This document shows, one piece after another, positions 15,475 through 43,645 of a DNA stretch of 64,000 nucleotides; the first letter of the stretch is position 1; every line of letters starts with the position of its first letter. The notes beneath the pieces were generated by a model that worked only from the letters and a program-made list of their open reading frames with translations, had not been told where the DNA came from and did not search any database. The DNA comes from Leuconostoc lactis (lineage in GTDB: Bacteria; Bacillota; Bacilli; Lactobacillales; Lactobacillaceae): positions 1,500,501-1,564,500 of the forward strand of contig NZ_CP042420.1 in the NCBI RefSeq assembly GCF_007954625.1, given 5' to 3'. The translations under genes and the position numbers were made by a program.

Positions 15475-15615
15475 AATACCCCTCTTTATACAAAAACCGC
15501 GTAAGTCGGCAGACTTACGCGGTTCTAGAAAATTACGGTCAATAGTATAGACTACGACCCCGAGTATCTAAATGCCTTGCAAGTCTCTCTGGACTTAATT
15601 AAAGGTTTTATCGTT
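15475..15615 (-). promoter_or_regulatory. PyrR-regulated attenuator leader of the pyr operon
   Basis: The leader holds a PyrR binding loop (15575-15596; minus-strand AGTCCAGAGAGACTTGCAAGG, near-identical to the AGUCCAGAGAGGCU-GCAAGG consensus) and a terminator directly before pyrB. UMP-bound PyrR should stabilise the anti-antiterminator and stop transcription. pyrR itself is not in the window. Confidence 0.93.
15491..15524 (-). terminator. Attenuator terminator before pyrB
   Basis: 13-bp stem AACCGCGTAAGTC with its complement, 4-nt loop, TTTTTG on the minus strand. Confidence 0.9.
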
Positions 15616-30488: not shown

Positions 30489-31841
30489 TCACTTTTTTAA
30501 ATGATTTGCAGCATTATAAGCTGCCAGCGCTTGATTAGTCGCATCTTCAGCCACTTGAAGACTTTTATCAATCGGCGCCCCGTTGGCAATGGATTGCATC
30601 GCCGTTTCCATATTAGTCCGAGCAATTGGCATAATTGGCACCAACGGCCCAGCTGTTACTGGATTTTTTTGACTGGTTGCGAGTTGTTGCGTCGCAACAC
30701 CCAAATTAGGATCTTTAGCGACCGCGGTGGTGATCTGCGGCAAATCTTTGGCGTGCTTGTTCACGGCAAGATACCCTGTTGCCAAACGCCATTGGGCTTG
30801 TGATTCGGCCGATGCCATGAATTTCAAGAAGTCCGCCGTGCCTTGTTTGACTGTTGCGGGTTGGTTCTTATTTGCCCACAACGCCGCCCCACCTAACGCG
30901 AGCCCGTTGCGTGGCACACCATCAGCATGTGGCAAATACGTCACACCGAGTTTAAACTTAGCATTGGCTTGCAAGTCACCAGTTGACGCTGACGATTGCA
31001 TGAAAATCCCCAACTTGCCTGCTAAAAACGCTGTCTGTTGGTTCGCTTCGGCAATGTCACCGGACCCGTAATTCACAAATGACTTATCCTGAATAGCTTG
31101 CGTCATAAATTGCATTAAACGCTTCGCTGCCGGCGTATTAAGATTAATTTTTGTCGCATACTGGCCAGCTGCGCGACCATTGTCATGATTGGCCAACAGT
31201 TGATTTTGGTTAGCGGTTAATTCTTCAAATAACCAACCGTACGCTTCAATCGTCATCCCCTTGGTTTGGCCACCCGTCTTGTCAGTAATTGCTTTGGCCA
31301 AATTCAAGACGTCCGTATAGCTGGGATCTTGTGGCAAAGGTGTTAAGCCTAACTGCTTGACGAGACCTTTATTATAATACAAAACTGGCGTTGATGAATT
31401 AAAAGGCATGGCTTGCAGCTGCTGATTGACAGTATAGTAGCGCGCAATATTATCTTCAATTTGATCCGTTGTTTGCGCGGTTAATAACTGATTCATAGGT
31501 ATCGTGCTTTTCGTGGCTAACATCGTACTTGTGGCAATTTCTTGGGCTTGCACAATCGCTGGTGCTGCTGAAGATTGCGCCACGTTTAAATATTTTGGCA
31601 AGGACTCTGTATAGGCACCTTGATATTCCGGTACGACCGTGTATTTGCTTTGTGACGCATTATATTTGGCCACTAATTGCTTCAAAGCAGCGGCCGGTTT
31701 GCCACCCATCGAATGCCAGAAAACAATGGTTGTGCGTTGATTAGCACTGGCTGTTGGTGTTTTGCCATGGGTAATGCCGATGACAATCACAGCCAGTATC
31801 GTCAGACATACGATTATAATGGTGGTCACTTTTTTCATCAT
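30489..31841 (-). CDS. ugpB: Glycerol-3-phosphate ABC transporter substrate-binding protein
   Basis: 450-residue extracellular binding protein of family 1. TTIVFWHSMGGKPAAALKQLV is the typical UgpB opening, and GNALAGGAAL-like NGLALGGAALWA lies near 290. The N-terminus is a hydrophobic segment (TTIIIVCLTILAVIVIGIT) but there is no lipobox cysteine after it, so it may be membrane-anchored through the uncleaved helix or released. Co-transcribed with the permeases. Confidence 0.9.
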   Translation of the reverse strand: MMKKVTTIIIVCLTILAVIVIGITHGKTPTASANQRTTIVFWHSMGGKPAAALKQLVAKYNASQSKYTVVPEYQGAYTESLPKYLNVAQSSAAPAIVQAQEIATSTMLATKSTIPMNQLLTAQTTDQIEDNIARYYTVNQQLQAMPFNSSTPVLYYNKGLVKQLGLTPLPQDPSYTDVLNLAKAITDKTGGQTKGMTIEAYGWLFEELTANQNQLLANHDNGRAAGQYATKINLNTPAAKRLMQFMTQAIQDKSFVNYGSGDIAEANQQTAFLAGKLGIFMQSSASTGDLQANAKFKLGVTYLPHADGVPRNGLALGGAALWANKNQPATVKQGTADFLKFMASAESQAQWRLATGYLAVNKHAKDLPQITTAVAKDPNLGVATQQLATSQKNPVTAGPLVPIMPIARTNMETAMQSIANGAPIDKSLQVAEDATNQALAAYNAANHLKK

Positions 31842-32659
31842 GATTTCACCGCCCCGTCAATTAATCCTGATTTAAAGGCTTTTTGTGATACTAACAAGAC
31901 TGCCAAACTTGGGAGCATCATTAAAATGGCGCTAGCCATGATGAGGCCCCAAGAATTAACCGCCTCAGTCGCTTGTAACTGGCGTAGGCCGATTTGTACC
32001 GTGCGGACGTTATCACTATAACTGGTGATCAGTGGCCAAAGATACATATTCCAAGTCGTCAAAAATGAATACGCTGCCAAGGTCAGCAAACTCGTTTTGG
32101 CGTAAGGTAAGACGGCGCGGTATAAAAATTGAGCATGGCCAATACCTTCGACTAACGCTGATTCACGTAACGCCATGGGAACCTGCATAAACGCCTGTCG
32201 CAATAAAAATGTGCCAAACGCGGTGGCAAAAAATGGCAATGCCAATGCGGCATAATGATTTAAAAACCCAAGCCAACGTAACGTTTGAAAGTTTGGAATT
32301 AATTGTGCTTCAAACGGGAGCATCATCGTTGCAATAAAAGCATAAAAGATAACATTTTTACCTTTAAATGGGATAAAGACAAATGCGTAAGCGGCTAGTG
32401 CTGAAAAAACAACCTGCCCCACCATGACCAAACTCGCCACCACAAATGAATTGAATAAATACCGCAAAATCGGTGTTTGTGTCAGCGCTTGGCGATAATT
32501 ATCAAAAGACAACGCGGTTGAAAAATATTGGCCGTTTAAAATCGCTGTATTTGGCAGTAACGAAACCCAAACGCCCACCAGTACCGGCGCAAAAATCAAG
32601 AATGACAGGCATAGTAAGAGCGTATAACGCCAGATTTTTTCTTGTGTTGGTATAATCAT
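31838..32659 (-). CDS. ugpE: Glycerol-3-phosphate ABC transporter permease UgpE
   Basis: 273-residue MalG-type permease with six helices. The EAA loop that docks the ATPase reads ALRESALVEGIGHAQFLYRAVLP. Overlaps both neighbours by 4 nt (ATGA), so it is tightly coupled to ugpA and ugpB. Confidence 0.93.
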   Translation of the reverse strand: MIIPTQEKIWRYTLLLCLSFLIFAPVLVGVWVSLLPNTAILNGQYFSTALSFDNYRQALTQTPILRYLFNSFVVASLVMVGQVVFSALAAYAFVFIPFKGKNVIFYAFIATMMLPFEAQLIPNFQTLRWLGFLNHYAALALPFFATAFGTFLLRQAFMQVPMALRESALVEGIGHAQFLYRAVLPYAKTSLLTLAAYSFLTTWNMYLWPLITSYSDNVRTVQIGLRQLQATEAVNSWGLIMASAILMMLPSLAVLLVSQKAFKSGLIDGAVKS

Positions 32660-33585
32660 TGATACATCACCCGCTTTTCTGTGAGTTTGAATTGCGCCAT
32701 GGTCACCAGCGCAATCAAAAGCGCTAAAATAATCGATTCCGTCGAGGCTTTGCCAATATTGAGGTTCACAAAAGCATCCCGATAAATCTGATAAACAATC
32801 AAATTCGTATGATTATTTGGGCCGCCTTTGGTCAATAAATCCACTTGTCCAAACGTCTGAAAGGCATTAATCATCGTCACCGTGGCCACAAAAAACAAAG
32901 TGGGACTAATGTGAGGGAGCGTAATATAGCGAAACTTAAGCCAAGGTGTAATCCCTTCAATTTCAGCCGTTTCGTATAAATGGGTTGGCACATTTTCTAA
33001 TGCACCAGAAATAGCCAAGAAAGCAAACCCGACATTCATCCACACAACCGTCAAAATCACAGCAACCAATGCCCAGACGTTACCAGTCAGCCAGTGAATC
33101 GGCGGTAAATGTAAGGCGTTTAGGATCATATCAGATACGCCAGTCGTTGGTTGAAAGAAGAACAACCATAAAACTGACGCCACGGACACTGAAACACCCA
33201 TCGTTGACGCAAATAAAGTTCTAAAAATGACCGTCCCGCGCAAATGCTTACGAGCCAAATTTGCTAAAGCTAACGCACAAATCGTGGTCAAGCTAGTCAC
33301 GGCAACCACAAATATTAAAGTCACGCCTAAACTTGTCAAAAAGACCGGATCTTTAAGAATCGTCGTATAATTTGCAAAACCAACAAATTTAACCGGCTCT
33401 CCTAACGCGTTGGTTAAAAAGAAGCTATAATAAACGGTTTTAACCAGCGGATAAAAAATAAAGACGCCAAGAAAAATAAGAGACGGTGTGAGAAAACCCA
33501 GGGCCACCAAATGCGTTCTCAGCGCTTGGCGCCAGCGTTGCTTGGTGCCTACTTGGTGATAAATTGCCGGTGTTACTTGTGCCAT
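32656..33585 (-). CDS. ugpA: Glycerol-3-phosphate ABC transporter permease UgpA
   Basis: MalF-type permease. Start set at MAQVTPAIYHQVGTKQRWRQ (309 residues), one nucleotide after the ugpC stop and behind GGGGGTG; the frame also extends 23 codons into ugpC but that part is not membrane-permease-like. The EAA loop is LYETAEIEGITPWLKFRYITLP. Six helices expected. Confidence 0.93.
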   Translation of the reverse strand: MAQVTPAIYHQVGTKQRWRQALRTHLVALGFLTPSLIFLGVFIFYPLVKTVYYSFFLTNALGEPVKFVGFANYTTILKDPVFLTSLGVTLIFVVAVTSLTTICALALANLARKHLRGTVIFRTLFASTMGVSVSVASVLWLFFFQPTTGVSDMILNALHLPPIHWLTGNVWALVAVILTVVWMNVGFAFLAISGALENVPTHLYETAEIEGITPWLKFRYITLPHISPTLFFVATVTMINAFQTFGQVDLLTKGGPNNHTNLIVYQIYRDAFVNLNIGKASTESIILALLIALVTMAQFKLTEKRVMYQ

Positions 33586-33586
33586 A

Positions 33587-34642
33587 TCACACCCCCACCG
33601 TGGCGAGCATTTTGCCAGCCAAATCAAAATAGTGCAATGCTGATCGTGGGACATACAGCGTGATAAATTGTTGCGCCGTCAGATCATGTTGGCCAGCAAT
33701 TTTAAATTGCAAGGATTCTTCTCGGCCGTTAATTGTCCCAAACAATAAGGTTTCCGACCCGATTTGTGTCACCGTTGTGACCCAGAAATCAATCGCTAAA
33801 TCATCCGCATTTTCAGGTGTGAGTCGGGCTGCTTCTGGTCGAATGCCAACCAAAGCATCCGGATCGTAGGACGTATCAATGACAACCCCGTGATTTTGCC
33901 AGTCCGTCACGCCAGGTAGCACATTCATTTTTGGTGTCCCAAAGAACTGGGCCACAAACGTATTGGCTGGTAGTTGATAAAGCTGCATCGGCGTACCAAT
34001 TTGTTGCACCACCCCATCATTTAAAATCATCACCCGATCTCCCATCGTCATGGCTTCGGTCTGATCATGGGTAACGTAGACCACCGTGATGCCGAGTTTA
34101 CGTTGCAAGGCTTTAATGTCATAACGCATACTTTCTCGTAATTGGGCATCTAGGTTGGAGAGCGGTTCGTCCATTAAAATGATCTCTGCGCCGGATACAA
34201 TACTCCGCGCTAAGGCCACGCGTTGACGCTGACCACCGGACAATTCACGCGGATAGCGATACGCATAATCGGTCATATTGACCATCTCTAAGGCATCGGA
34301 TAGCCGTTGAAGCTGGGTAGCGCTGTCTACCTTCCGGGCTTTTAATCCAAAAGTAATGTTATCAGCGACGGTCATATTGGGATAAAGCGCATAGTTTTGA
34401 AACACCATGGACAAATGACGGGCCTTTGGTGGCAAATCATTCATACGCTCCCCATCAATGATTAAATCACCATCAGTAATGGGTTCTAAGCCAGCAATCA
34501 TTCTTAAAAGGGTTGATTTACCCGACCCAGATGGGCCAACCATCACAAAAAACTCACCTGGCATAATCGACACCGTGACATCTTTAATCACCGCTTCTTG
34601 CTGCTGATCATAGACTTTTTGTAGTCGTTTCAACTCAATCAT
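33587..34642 (-). CDS. ugpC: ABC transporter ATP-binding protein (UgpC/MsmK type)
   Basis: 351 residues. Walker A GPSGSGKS near 37-44, signature LSGGQRQRVALARS, Walker B ILMDEPLSNLD, H-loop in VYVTHDQTEAM. C-terminal TOBE/MalK-like regulatory domain (about 235-351). First gene of the operon; UgpC-like ATPases are often shared among sugar systems. Upstream 34643-34748 holds a TTGACA without a well-placed -10. Confidence 0.93.
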   Translation of the reverse strand: MIELKRLQKVYDQQQEAVIKDVTVSIMPGEFFVMVGPSGSGKSTLLRMIAGLEPITDGDLIIDGERMNDLPPKARHLSMVFQNYALYPNMTVADNITFGLKARKVDSATQLQRLSDALEMVNMTDYAYRYPRELSGGQRQRVALARSIVSGAEIILMDEPLSNLDAQLRESMRYDIKALQRKLGITVVYVTHDQTEAMTMGDRVMILNDGVVQQIGTPMQLYQLPANTFVAQFFGTPKMNVLPGVTDWQNHGVVIDTSYDPDALVGIRPEAARLTPENADDLAIDFWVTTVTQIGSETLLFGTINGREESLQFKIAGQHDLTAQQFITLYVPRSALHYFDLAGKMLATVGV

Positions 34643-34787: not shown

Positions 34788-35729
34788 TTAATACCCCTTA
34801 TCTAAATTCACAACATTATAAGTTAGGCTGCCATCAGCAACAAAACCTGGGATATTTTTCTTAAATAACCGAAAGAGACCACCTGTCCGGCCATAGTTTT
34901 CATGTTCACCCCAACTGGTATGCTGCGTTAACAAAATCTGTGGTCGTTCAAACAAGGGATGGTGTGTTGGCAAAGGTTCAGGGGTCGTGACATCAAGGGC
35001 CGCAAAGCGCACACGCGAATCATCAATTGCCGCTAACAAGGCGTCTTGATCTAAAGTCGTACCACGGCCAATGTTAACAAAGAGGAACAATTCATTCACT
35101 TGTTCAAAAAAGTATTCATCAAAGAAGTTTTCTGTGTCTTTTGTGCCTGGCAGCCCATCCACAACAACGCGAGCTTTTGAAAGCCCCTCTTGATAATTTG
35201 TAATCGGATAAACTTCATCAAAGCCTGGCACAGCACGGCCTGTCGTGTTGACACCATAAACAGTGCCCCCAAATCCTTTAATTTGCGCTGCAATTTGCTG
35301 CCCAATGCGACCCGTTCCAAAAACTAAGACCGGCAGTTCACTAACCATATACTGATCGGTAAACGGTTCCCAGTGTTGTCGGGTCGCGTACACATTTAAA
35401 CCACGGGCAAAATATAAAATGTAACTCAACACCGTTTGTGCAATGGGTTCGGCTTTCAGACCACTCGCATTGGTCACCATAATGCCGCGTTCTTTAAGGG
35501 TTTGTAAGGGTAAATAGTCCACGCCGGCCGATTGGGTCTGAATCCATTTCAATTTTGAATCTGGCTGAGCCAGTATCTTATCGCCAATGCGATTATCCCA
35601 AGCATAGCTAATCACAACATCGGAAATTTGTGCATCAGTAATCGTGTCTGGCGTCACAACGTCAATATCGTGTTCAGCCAAAAACGCACGATCTTCTTCA
35701 CTAATGGCTTTCACTGCTAGAAGTAACAT
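34788..35729 (-). CDS. D-isomer 2-hydroxyacid dehydrogenase
   Basis: NAD(P)-dependent reductase of 2-oxo acids. Start at MLLLAVKAISEEDRAFL with GGAG upstream; 313 residues. NAD loop VLVFGTGRIGQQIA; the NIGRGTTLDQDAL segment and late HHPLFERPQILLTQHTSWGEHE carry the catalytic region with His. Substrate is unknown; the divergent branched-chain aminotransferase locus makes a 2-oxo acid from amino acids possible, but this is inference. Confidence 0.87.
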   Translation of the reverse strand: MLLLAVKAISEEDRAFLAEHDIDVVTPDTITDAQISDVVISYAWDNRIGDKILAQPDSKLKWIQTQSAGVDYLPLQTLKERGIMVTNASGLKAEPIAQTVLSYILYFARGLNVYATRQHWEPFTDQYMVSELPVLVFGTGRIGQQIAAQIKGFGGTVYGVNTTGRAVPGFDEVYPITNYQEGLSKARVVVDGLPGTKDTENFFDEYFFEQVNELFLFVNIGRGTTLDQDALLAAIDDSRVRFAALDVTTPEPLPTHHPLFERPQILLTQHTSWGEHENYGRTGGLFRLFKKNIPGFVADGSLTYNVVNLDKGY

Positions 35730-35818
35730 CTGATTTTCTCCAATCTGTTTTCTAGTGCTATCATAACGCATTATTTTCTAACGGTTCGCGTGATTTTAAT
35801 GAGTTTTAAATTAAAATG

Positions 35819-35847
35819 TTGACATTTAATTATCTTCGTGCCATAAT
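35819..35847 (+). promoter_or_regulatory. Promoter of the leader-peptide attenuator
   Basis: TTGACA (35819-35824), 17-bp spacer, CATAAT (35842-35847). Confidence 0.85.
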
Positions 35848-35877
35848 TTAAAACAACAAATCAAAGGAAATAAAACG

Positions 35878-35943
35878 ATGTACTTATCAGCAACTGACAA
35901 CTTCACAATCGTCATTAAGATCAACGCCGTCATTATTATGTGA
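35878..35943 (+). CDS. Branched-chain attenuator leader peptide
   Basis: 21-residue peptide MYLSATDNFT followed by IVIKINAVIIM, behind AAAGGA. Eight of the last eleven residues are Ile, Val or Met, and six of them Ile/Val-type codons read consecutively near the stop. Three alternative hairpins and a terminator follow. This is the layout of an amino-acid attenuator: slow reading of Ile/Val codons would change folding downstream. The 355-nt gap before the membrane gene is fully taken up by this leader. Confidence 0.8.
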   Translation: MYLSATDNFTIVIKINAVIIM

Positions 35944-36058
35944 CTTCTCGCTGGTCTGTTTTCGCTACCAGTCGAGAAGGTTTCTCGACTGGCGCGGAAT
36001 TGTTGTTGACAACATTTTCAAGAGGCGCTAGTACCCCACTAGCGCCTCTTTTCTTTTT
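35944..36058 (+). promoter_or_regulatory. Attenuator hairpins and terminator
   Basis: Segment 1 (35944-35955) can pair with segment 2 (35967-35979); segment 2 alternatively pairs with segment 3 (35982-35992) through a perfect 11-bp stem. A strong terminator (36020-36050, 13-bp stem AAGAGGCGCTAGT, then TTTCTTTTT) follows. Segment 3 contains GGCGC that could invade the terminator arm. Confidence 0.75.
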
Positions 36059-36126
36059 GATTTAATGGCACTGTACTACTGTTACGTTGGCGAGCACGTC
36101 AACAGTCCACCACGGAGGAGAATCAC

Positions 36127-37260
36127 ATGGATCTAACTGCAAATGCAACCCCAACAATGGCCGAAGACGCCATATCACTGACCGACAAAAAGGTCAAACC
36201 ACAGACATTTAGAGACGTGGTGTTTGACGTTTCTACTGGCATTTCTAATGCAATTTTAGCGGTGCTTGGCATGGGCCTCCTGATGGCTTCCTTAGGCAAT
36301 TTATTCCATTACACACCACTTATCCAAGCCGGCCTGATGGGGCAAAAAATGTTAGCCCCCGCCCTAGGTGTAGGTATTGCCATTATGATGCGCGCCAACA
36401 TCTTAACGACTGGTGCTGCGCTGATTGCGGCAACAGTCGGCTCAAACGCAGTTTACTTCACGACAACAGTTGTGCCTGGCACCCATACCGCAACTGGTTG
36501 GTTAGCCAATCAGCCAGCTGGTTCGTTAGTGATGACATCAGGACAACCCATCTCGGCGGTCCTTGCGGCGATTTTAGCCGTCTTGGTTGGCAACTGGCTA
36601 ACTGGTAAAACACCACTCGACATGATGCTGGTCCCTTTGGCGGCAACACTAGCTGGTACGTTCTTTGGTCTCGGGACAGCCGCCGTTACAACGCCGTTCT
36701 TGAACTGGGTTTCTGAATCACTGGCTTCAACCATGAAAGTGAATCCATTCCTTGGCGCCTTTGTTGTCGCTGTCGTTTGGTTCCTCTTCTTAATGACACC
36801 CGCTTCTTCAGCAGCATTGGCCATTGCCGTCATGCTCGATCCGCTTTCCGGTGGCGCTGCCATGATTGGCACCACAGCTGGTTTCGTTGTTTATACGGCC
36901 ATGGGTTGGACACAAAATGATCTTGGGGCCAATTTTGCCCAAACGATTGTGACACCAAAAGTCCAATTTCCAAACCTATTGAAGAGCCCATTGTTAATGT
37001 TTGGCCCCGCCTTTATTGCCGGCTTGTCTGCCATGGTGGCGGTTGGGGTTTTCCATTTGAAAGTGCCATTTGCCATCGCCGGTCTTGGTTTAAACGGCTT
37101 CATTGCCCCATTGGCACTGGCTTCAACCAATCCGACGGGCCTCTTATTGTTGGTCGTCTTTGGGATCGTTATCCCAGTGGTTGCCTGCATGGTCATGTAT
37201 TATAGCCTGAAGAAAATGGGTAAAACGCATGAAAATGATTTACATTTAGATGTTGTTTAA
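36127..37260 (+). CDS. PTS EIIC-type multi-pass membrane protein
   Basis: 377 residues with about ten hydrophobic segments, rich in Ala, Gly and Val. Blocks such as MRANILTTGAALIAATVGSN and GQPISAVLAAILAVLVGNWLTG resemble the PTS_EIIC_2-type integral membrane proteins; no IIA or IIB gene is near. The gene is controlled by a branched-chain leader peptide and followed by a branched-chain aminotransferase, so transport of a branched-chain amino acid or oxo acid is a fair guess. GGAGGAG precedes the ATG. Confidence 0.65.
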   Translation: MDLTANATPTMAEDAISLTDKKVKPQTFRDVVFDVSTGISNAILAVLGMGLLMASLGNLFHYTPLIQAGLMGQKMLAPALGVGIAIMMRANILTTGAALIAATVGSNAVYFTTTVVPGTHTATGWLANQPAGSLVMTSGQPISAVLAAILAVLVGNWLTGKTPLDMMLVPLAATLAGTFFGLGTAAVTTPFLNWVSESLASTMKVNPFLGAFVVAVVWFLFLMTPASSAALAIAVMLDPLSGGAAMIGTTAGFVVYTAMGWTQNDLGANFAQTIVTPKVQFPNLLKSPLLMFGPAFIAGLSAMVAVGVFHLKVPFAIAGLGLNGFIAPLALASTNPTGLLLLVVFGIVIPVVACMVMYYSLKKMGKTHENDLHLDVV

Positions 37261-37281
37261 TTTTTAATGACGCGTTATAGT
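37253..37281 (+). promoter_or_regulatory. Possible ilvE promoter
   Basis: TTGTTT (37253-37258), 17-bp spacer, TATAGT (37276-37281), at the end of the membrane gene; would give attenuation-independent expression. Confidence 0.45.
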
Positions 37282-37318
37282 AGAATTATTATAATTTTAT
37301 CAGAAAGAAGAATAGATT

Positions 37319-38359
37319 ATGTCACAAAAGAAAGCACAACCCTCTGATTTCAACTGGTCTGAACTTGGTTTCGCCTACCATGACCTGCCCTACCGTTTCC
37401 GTGCCTACTATAAAGACGGCAAGTGGAGTGAAGGCGGCCTAGAAACCGACTCAAATTTGCCAGTCAATGAAGCAGCCACGGGCCTTCATTATGGCCAAAA
37501 TATTTTTGAAGGCCTCAAGGTTTATCGGCGTAAAGATGGTGGTGCTAATCTATTCCGCCCTGATCGTAATGCCAAGCGATTCCAAGATTCAGCTGCTCGT
37601 TTGATGATGGCCCCCGTACCTGAAGAATTATTCCTCCGTGGATTACGTGAAGTGACCAAGGCAAACCAAGACTTTATTCCACCTTATGGCACAGGTGCGA
37701 CGCTTTATCTGCGTCCCTTCGAATTCGGTGGTGGCCCAGTGGTTGGGGTGCATCCTGCTGACAATTATGTCTTTGAAGTTTACGCCACACCAGTAGGTGC
37801 CTACTATAAGGGTGGTTTAACGCCAACTGCTTATGTGACAAATCATTATGATCGTGCCGCCCATGGCGGCACAGGGGCAGCTAAGGCTGGTGGTAACTAC
37901 GGTGCTTCTATGATTGCTGGTCATGAAGCGCATGCAGCTGGTTACTCTGATGTGGTCTACCTTGACCCACGTTTGCATGAAAATATTGAAGAACTCGGGT
38001 CAGCTAACTTCTTTGGCATTACCAAAGATGGGCGTTTCTTAACACCAAAGTCCCCTTCAATCTTGCCATCAGTTACCAAGTATTCATTGTTGGCTGTGGC
38101 TGAAGAACTTGGCCTTAAGGCGGAAGAAACAACGATTTCAATCAATGATTTAGATCAATTTGCAGAAGCTGGTGCCATGGGGACAGCCGCTGTCATCTCA
38201 CCGGTTGGTTCAATTACACACAACGGTAAAAAGCACGTCTTCTATTCAGAAACAGAAGTTGGACCATGGACGCAAAAGTTGTATGACCGCCTCACAGCGA
38301 TTCAATATGGCGATGAGAAAGGCCCTGAAGGTTGGGCTGTTGATGTCCCACTTGATTAA
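37319..38359 (+). CDS. ilvE: Branched-chain amino acid aminotransferase
   Basis: PLP fold-type IV enzyme transferring amino groups between Leu/Ile/Val and 2-oxoglutarate. 346 residues. The PLP lysine is in GAAKAGGNYGAS (about 190-201), and the LHYGQNIFEGLKVYRR and substrate-end GTAAVISPVGSI blocks are typical. 58 nt after the membrane gene; read from the attenuator and perhaps a weak promoter of its own. Terminator follows. Confidence 0.95.
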   Translation: MSQKKAQPSDFNWSELGFAYHDLPYRFRAYYKDGKWSEGGLETDSNLPVNEAATGLHYGQNIFEGLKVYRRKDGGANLFRPDRNAKRFQDSAARLMMAPVPEELFLRGLREVTKANQDFIPPYGTGATLYLRPFEFGGGPVVGVHPADNYVFEVYATPVGAYYKGGLTPTAYVTNHYDRAAHGGTGAAKAGGNYGASMIAGHEAHAAGYSDVVYLDPRLHENIEELGSANFFGITKDGRFLTPKSPSILPSVTKYSLLAVAEELGLKAEETTISINDLDQFAEAGAMGTAAVISPVGSITHNGKKHVFYSETEVGPWTQKLYDRLTAIQYGDEKGPEGWAVDVPLD

Positions 38360-43542: not shown

Positions 43543-43645
43543 TATTGAATTCTCCTTATACTTAGACTCACCATCCCAGGCGGGCCGGCTCTAGTCCGAC
43601 ACGTACTTCAACCTGTTCTGAGTGGTTGTAGCTCTGCTAACAACT
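43543..43645 (-). ncRNA. L21 leader (ribosomal protein leader RNA)
   Basis: About 100-nt untranslated leader with a GC-rich block (GCCGGCCCGCCTGG region on the minus strand) and several short hairpins, in the exact place of the Firmicute L21 leader ahead of rplU. Judged by position and overall pattern, not by a covariance search. Confidence 0.7.

Follow-up and report, generated by a model that had tools for sequence, protein, structure and literature searches.

An isoleucine/valine leader-peptide attenuator that appears to switch on an EIIC-fold membrane carrier in Leuconostoc

In Leuconostoc lactis, a gene for an EIIC-like membrane protein lies upstream of the branched-chain aminotransferase gene ilvE and downstream of a short open reading frame (ORF) rich in Ile and Val codons. 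This arrangement raises the questions of how the gene is controlled and what its product carries. Analyzing a 64,000-nt stretch of the genome (the window), we found that an RNA switch appears to turn on the membrane carrier when protein synthesis stalls for shortage of Ile or Val.

The consensus promoter and the 21-codon peptide ending in an Ile/Val run that an earlier note on this DNA had described are both present (Table 1), and a sequence like that of the promoter precedes the leader in Leuconostoc relatives, as judged by eye. Seven of the last 11 residues of the peptide (IVIKINAVIIM) are Ile or Val (binomial P of ~2e-4, based on the window's own composition). The 183 nt between the leader stop codon and the start of the PF13303 gene contain overlapping hairpins (35944-35999) and, after them, an intrinsic terminator (36020-36050, then a T tract), as the same note had also reported; the 274-nt leader fold has a z of −5.5 and is better than 200/200 shuffles. 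With a translatable short ORF carrying control codons and an intrinsic terminator before the gene, the locus has two of the defining parts of a leader-peptide attenuator. This attenuator probably also controls ilvE, which may in addition be transcribed from its own promoter, as a separate promoter-like site matching 10 of 12 consensus positions is located at 37267-37295. The encoded PF13303 protein is 95% identical to an L. lactis protein and 93% identical to an L. holzapfelii protein. In Leuconostoc, the D-2-hydroxyacid dehydrogenase gene is a neighbor in 12 of 19 loci, and ilvE and the dehydrogenase gene are both absent from 6 of 19. In two Leuconostoc loci without ilvE (L005:5248-7092 and L012:5231-7075), an amino acid permease-like gene lies 3' of the carrier gene; that of L005 is AA_permease_2 and that of L012 is similar by eye. 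Elsewhere on the minus strand of the window, we noted an ABC transporter at 31838-34642 consisting of two ORFs that look permease-like by eye and an ATPase matching UgpC best in NCBIfam, below cut-off, a PyrR binding site at 15489-15609 (Rfam, 54.9 bits versus a cut-off of 54), and a ribosomal protein L21 leader at 43554-43637 (Rfam).

Table 1. Features of the leader region and flanking genes (window coordinates)
Feature	Position	Strand	Details	Basis
D-2-hydroxyacid dehydrogenase gene, divergent	34788-35771	−		Pfam 2-Hacid_dh
Promoter	35819-35847	+	TTGACA-17-CATAAT, TG before −10	11/12 consensus positions
RBS of leader ORF	35863-35868	+	AAAGGA	Read from sequence
Leader peptide	35878-35943	+	MYLSATDNFTIVIKINAVIIM, Ile/Val control codons	21 codons + stop
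Arm A	35918-35933	+	Within leader codons; AGAUCA and GUCAU pair with B region	Fold and shuffle test
Arm B	35940-35957	+	Abuts leader stop codon; 35944-35955 for B:C	
Arm C	35967-35979	+		B:C, 5 pairs, and C:D, 3 pairs, changed on both sides
Arm D	35982-35999	+	35982-35992 pairs with C; 35988-35995 (ACUGGCGC) pairs with E	
Arm E	36020-36032	+	Terminator 5' arm; GCGCUAGU (36025-36032) pairs with D	
Arm F and T tract	36038-36058	+	Intrinsic terminator; arm F at 36038-36050	13-bp stem
PF13303 (PTS_EIIC_2) membrane protein gene	36127-37260	+	377 aa, glucose-superfamily EIIC fold	
ilvE, branched-chain aminotransferase	37319-38359	+		TIGR01123 and NF009897 above cut-off

Of 19 Leuconostoc genomes, the window's own included, 18 have an intact leader peptide; in the 19th (L088), the leader is truncated by the end of the contig, leaving only C to F. 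The leader ORF is also found in 15 of the 16 loci L001-L016 from Leuconostoc, Convivina and Fructobacillus, a set whose species overlap heavily with those of the 19 genomes; it is cut by a contig end in L008 and was read by eye and by script in L016. Across these leaders, the N-terminal half is variable, whereas the ribosome binding site (RBS), the start, the stop position and the Ile/Val tail (Leu in the paralogue leaders described below) are kept, with tails such as NVVIII, NAVIIM, QIVIII and ISIIII directly before the stop codon. Other genera of the same family have the tails LAVIID, SLIIIS, NEIIIR, TVIIIN and NVLIII. ILV-rich leaders precede the homologue in 22/22 fetched loci of family f138 and also in L163, L052 and L079. 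The conservation of leader codons in relatives, on which the earlier note had staked its reading, is therefore evident, with the Ile/Val tail retained in all 18 readable Leuconostoc genomes.

The hairpins and the terminator of the earlier arm inventory are confirmed, but one more arm, upstream within the leader codons, had been missed; it pairs with the first hairpin arm, giving an attenuator of six arms, A to F. The A:B hairpin is more stable than shuffles in 16/16 representatives (fraction of ≤0.043 each). Because this hairpin forms in folds that include the leader codons, we dropped a five-segment model without arm A, in which the untranslated leader would be on. The pairings fall into two sets: A:B, C:D and E:F for termination, and B:C and D:E for read-through, the antiterminator being formed by ACUGGCGC pairing with GCGCUAGU. 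Thus, segment 3, which had been thought not to directly overlap the terminator arm, does pair with the terminator 5' arm.

The check for covariation of the leader in relatives that the earlier note had called for was done on an alignment of 16 Leuconostoc leaders, and B:C, C:D and E:F are each supported by double-sided changes (6 pairs for E:F; Table 1). In the read-through structure (B:C and D:E), 89.5% of cells are paired and 21 are changed on both sides, while the corresponding values for the terminating structure (C:D and E:F) are 90.5% and 29; these counts of double-changed cells were reached by 0/500 column shuffles, with the caution for the tool that kinship alone can beat shuffles without structure. 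When the structures were slid by 1 to 3 columns, 27 to 54% of cells were paired versus about 90%. Shuffles did reach two others of the tool's five measures: as many double-changed pairs were obtained in 61/500 (read-through) and 16/500 (terminating) shuffles, and as many pair types in 4/500 and 229/500, respectively.

D:E is paired in 99.2% of cells in the 16 leaders, and six of its eight pairs are invariant within Leuconostoc; because it hardly varies there, its support in this genus is constraint and not covariation. Over 11 lineages, the arms differ widely, including a 12-bp CUGACUAGUACG:CGUAUUAGUUAG duplex in L124 and a long pairing in L121, and the D:E duplex exceeds shuffles with a combined Fisher P of ~7e-7. 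Individually, both tests give significance for L118, L121, L124 and L129; the result is borderline (0.01 to 0.14) for the window, L016, L114 and L120, and L119, L125 and L014 are clearly not significant, the script having picked the wrong arm in L014. When each D region was tested against foreign E arms as well as its own, the cognate E ranked first in 1 of 15 cases and among the top three in 9 of 15, with mean energies of −13.6 for cognate and −10.0 for foreign arms. By computation, the leader is therefore of the six-arm his type, with D:E supported over the 11 lineages combined and not in each.

We simulated the position of the ribosome by folding the nascent RNA, before F is made, with everything masked as far as 12 nt beyond the first base of the A-site codon, 12 nt being taken as the ribosome footprint. 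All folding is equilibrium folding of the masked nascent RNA and not kinetics. Without a ribosome, C:D was held (off) in 22 of 28 leaders, the other 6 (L001, L003, L004, L009, L011 and L105) being predicted to be on. With a ribosome stalled at −5 to −3, 24 of 28 leaders switched to B:C (on), the exceptions being L012, L117, L119 and L125; L012, L015, L117 and L119 had no stall window anywhere. With the ribosome at the stop codon, all 28 leaders were off. The window leader is on with codons 11 to 19 (I11 to I19) in the A site; the codons closest to the stop (I20 in this leader) lie outside the predicted read-through range. In the leader of the Leu-type paralogue of the same genome, described below, codons 12 to 17 (TLLLNL) are on. 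Outside the Leuconostoc group, the off/on/off pattern is full in L079, partial in L052, L163 and L190, and absent in L168, L169, L180, L185 and L186.

Control codons are enriched among the positions that give read-through: 138/220 control codons versus 162/397 others in 30 Ile/Val leaders (odds of 2.4), and 51/71 versus 48/159 in 12 Leu leaders (odds of 5.9), both at the +12 footprint; the trend is also seen at +10 and +14. We note that the P values of this enrichment overstate the case because the sequences are related and the control codons cluster near the stop codon. When the gain specific to stalling was compared with shuffles of each sequence, 6 of 10 leaders were at or below ~5% (16/300 for the window), while L014 (37/300), L129 (47/300), L005 (218/300) and L124 (263/300) did not pass. 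A cruder count of terminator-arm pairs against masked nucleotides, run on 17 leaders, was clean for the window, with the switch at 10 to 11 nt, and not clean for L119, L120, L124, L125 and L129. Mutually exclusive structures selected by ribosome position are thus obtained by computation alone, with mixed results in the per-sequence shuffle test.

These data support that the leader is a ribosome-mediated attenuator of the his-operon type that follows an Ile/Val starvation logic, a reading in which we have high confidence. The proposal of an Ile/Val attenuator is thereby upheld by conservation, by base changes that keep pairs and by the computed window on the Ile/Val block; the response in cells, the direction of transport and the substrate we infer. 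With enough charged tRNA, the ribosome would reach the stop codon and cover A and B, upon which C:D and then the terminator E:F would form. If the leader were not translated, A:B, C:D and E:F would form, and the gene would be off as well. If Ile or Val were short, the ribosome would stall at codons 11 to 19, covering A and leaving B free; B would pair with C, and D would be freed to pair with E before F is made, so that RNA polymerase would read through. The ribosome geometry led us away from the inverse logic, in which plentiful Ile/Val would turn the gene on.

All 19 Leuconostoc genomes encode a second PF13303 member (45 to 48% identical); its leader has LLLNLLLI, LLLNLQLI or LLRNLLLI at its end and similar arms by eye. 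In the Leu leader, D:E is GUUAGGA:UCCUAAC; the Leu alignment (A2) varies little, and its three double-changed pairs were reached by 277/500 shuffles. Among the 12 paralogue loci examined, which have short flanks, 7 have a LivJ-like gene 3' of the paralogue (best NCBIfam match a branched-chain ABC substrate-binding subfamily, below cut-off), and none has an ilvE match. Three Ligilactobacillus loci (L017, L043 and L047) have a T-box ahead of the homologue, scoring below the Rfam gathering threshold; its specifier is CUC (Leu) in L017 from the alignment, and L043 is alike by eye. In the same three loci, a divergent gene for a relative of 2-oxo-acid hydratases also carries a T-box, the specifier of which is AUC (Ile). 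A scan of 16 loci at the gathering threshold gave a T-box in L017 only, namely the divergent one, and this threshold also missed those in L043 and L047.

Many Lactobacillaceae homologues show neither leader nor T-box, including, by eye and among the loci listed, those of Lactiplantibacillus, Secundilactobacillus and Lentilactobacillus. Homologues without either element, from many Lactobacillaceae among L018-L080 and from L126-L128, share a 5' untranslated region with repeated TTCTCAT, TTCTAAT or TTTTAAT soon after the −10 (by eye), possibly a novel RNA or DNA element. In a phylum-wide PF13303 sample, 63 of 299 genomes gave 30 loci, of which 27 could be scanned; a T-box motif was found in 0 of these 27, a D-2-hydroxyacid dehydrogenase gene preceded the PF13303 gene in 0 of the 30, and short ILV-rich ORFs in L148, L158 and L160 were judged not to be convincing leaders. 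A gene for an HpaH/MhpD-like 2-oxo-acid hydratase, with matches below the NCBIfam cut-offs, accompanies the carrier gene at L016:5153-5950, L121:3742-4057 and L043:2337-3137; it occurs together with ilvE in L121 and has its own Ile-type T-box in Ligilactobacillus. The other two PF13303 genes of the genome (L130, G000:C1:744000-746500, and L131, G000:C1:910500-913000) each lie 3' of a D-2-hydroxyacid dehydrogenase gene.

What, then, does the membrane protein carry? PF13303 is its sole domain, and the protein is predicted to have an EIIC fold, its model matching glucose-superfamily EIIC structures; no solved structure was matched by sequence. Compared with the glucose-superfamily EIICs PtsG, MalT and ChbC, it is 11 to 14% identical, lacks EIIA and EIIB domains and has a branched-chain-coded leader. 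Sugar PTS EIICs have a conserved Glu and His at the sugar site. In 22 aligned members of the family, we found no invariant or near-invariant His or Glu, with the qualification that an hhalign comparison with two sugar EIICs of the same genome gave no mapping of positions between them. Neither ilvC nor ilvD had a match in the genome, while both families were matched in 14/14 controls. In a host without ilvC and ilvD, the carrier would most likely import either a branched-chain amino acid itself or a 2-oxo (or 2-hydroxy) acid, the latter to be aminated by IlvE. Judging from regulation and context, the membrane protein likely carries branched-chain amino or 2-oxo acids. The suggestion of a branched-chain rather than a sugar substrate is supported by the Leu leader on the paralogue, the Leu T-box on a homologue, the ilvE and livJ neighbors, and the absence of EIIA and EIIB from the protein.

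The best surviving alternative, which we nevertheless consider improbable, is that the RNA element is real, that the protein transports sugar as a PTS permease or acts as a regulator and that the control reflects only the neighboring ilvE. The family name, PTS_EIIC_2, and the match of the model to glucose-superfamily EIIC structures are as this alternative predicts, but EIIA and EIIB domains were found neither in the protein nor in the four neighboring proteins scanned, 6 of 19 Leuconostoc loci have no ilvE yet keep the leader ahead of the EIIC gene, and the paralogue has a Leu leader with no ilvE match in the 12 loci examined. Slightly less probable again is that the attenuator is real and the protein is an exporter or part of a catabolic route from branched-chain amino acid to 2-oxo acid to 2-hydroxy acid, in an operon that is on when Ile/Val are plentiful. 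IlvE, the divergent dehydrogenase and the two further PF13303 genes that follow dehydrogenase genes would suit such a route; however, termination at the stop codon in 28/28 leaders and read-through upon stalling in 24/28 amount to induction by starvation, a host without ilvC and ilvD is not expected to burn scarce Ile/Val, and a homologue has a Leu T-box, an element that switches on when tRNA is uncharged. That the conserved leader is instead a T-box, riboswitch or protein-binding leader with an incidental ORF is very hard to credit: the only point in its favor is that T-boxes are generally frequent in Firmicutes, whereas the leader has no Rfam match at the gathering threshold and chance-level matches in a permissive scan (T-box RF00230 in neither), and the ORF keeps its RBS, start, stop position and tail as its N-terminal half varies.

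Returning to a branched-chain carrier under attenuation, we propose, tentatively and as something somewhat short of an even chance, that a PF13303 subfamily annotated as sugar PTS EIICs comprises non-phosphorylating EIIC-fold branched-chain carriers, with Ile/Val and Leu paralogues labelled by the codons of their own his-type attenuators, and that in an Ile/Val auxotroph the Ile/Val member would import 2-oxo/2-hydroxy acids that IlvE, with the neighboring dehydrogenase, would make into amino acids. The dehydrogenase genes ahead of the other two PF13303 genes of this genome give a hint that 2-oxo/2-hydroxy acids may be substrates of the wider PF13303 family.

The switch plan itself is known. 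In the his operon of enterobacteria, AB, CD and EF terminate, and BC and DE read through when the ribosome covers A (PMC10989985). The Leuconostoc leader has the same A-F cascade but Ile/Val or Leu codons instead of His codons, with A within the control codons and B abutting the stop codon, and its target is a membrane carrier and not a biosynthetic operon; we claim no sequence relation. Among Firmicutes, Listeria Rli60 is a ribosome-mediated attenuator of ilv-leu with a branched-chain leader peptide, in which ATG and RBS mutants lower expression (PMC5864092). It resembles the Leuconostoc leader in peptide and terminator/antiterminator, and the effect of start and RBS mutants is as we would predict for the latter; Rli60 controls biosynthesis genes, whereas the Leuconostoc target is a carrier in a host without ilvC or ilvD. 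For the Staphylococcus aureus ilvD attenuator, which has a Leu/Ile leader peptide and also controls biosynthesis, the proposed antiterminator sequesters the poly-U tail and leaves the terminator stem intact (PMC5794164), in contrast to that of Leuconostoc, which takes up the terminator 5' arm. The lactococcal leu-ilv attenuator, the example given in the earlier note, is mentioned as predicted in PMC5794164 and likewise belongs to a lactic acid bacterium, but to a biosynthetic operon; such attenuators are thus known beyond Lactococcus, in Listeria and S. aureus. In bacilli, His leader-peptide attenuators replace T-boxes at hisS and hisZ (PMC2965389), which are Firmicute attenuators too but for another amino acid and tRNA-synthetase-type genes. 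For Firmicute branched-chain amino acid transporters under T-box control, a starvation control used for substrate prediction, the families named are LIVCS and NSS (PMC2494555). They share starvation control with the Leuconostoc carrier; the term EIIC is absent from the main text of that paper. In the literature searched, we recognized no description of the leader or of PF13303 as an amino acid carrier, PF13303 appearing once in passing, and found none of the target, the hosts or the Ile/Val-Leu paralogue pair.

The leader thus points to a possible substrate for a carrier family that is classed with sugar transporters. Ile/Val and Leu paralogues on one RNA plan, together with T-boxes on some homologues, make the idea of an EIIC-fold branched-chain carrier directly testable, and Leuconostoc and several other genera join the Firmicutes with leader-peptide attenuators. 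If the idea is true, a phosphotransferase fold would be working outside the PTS.
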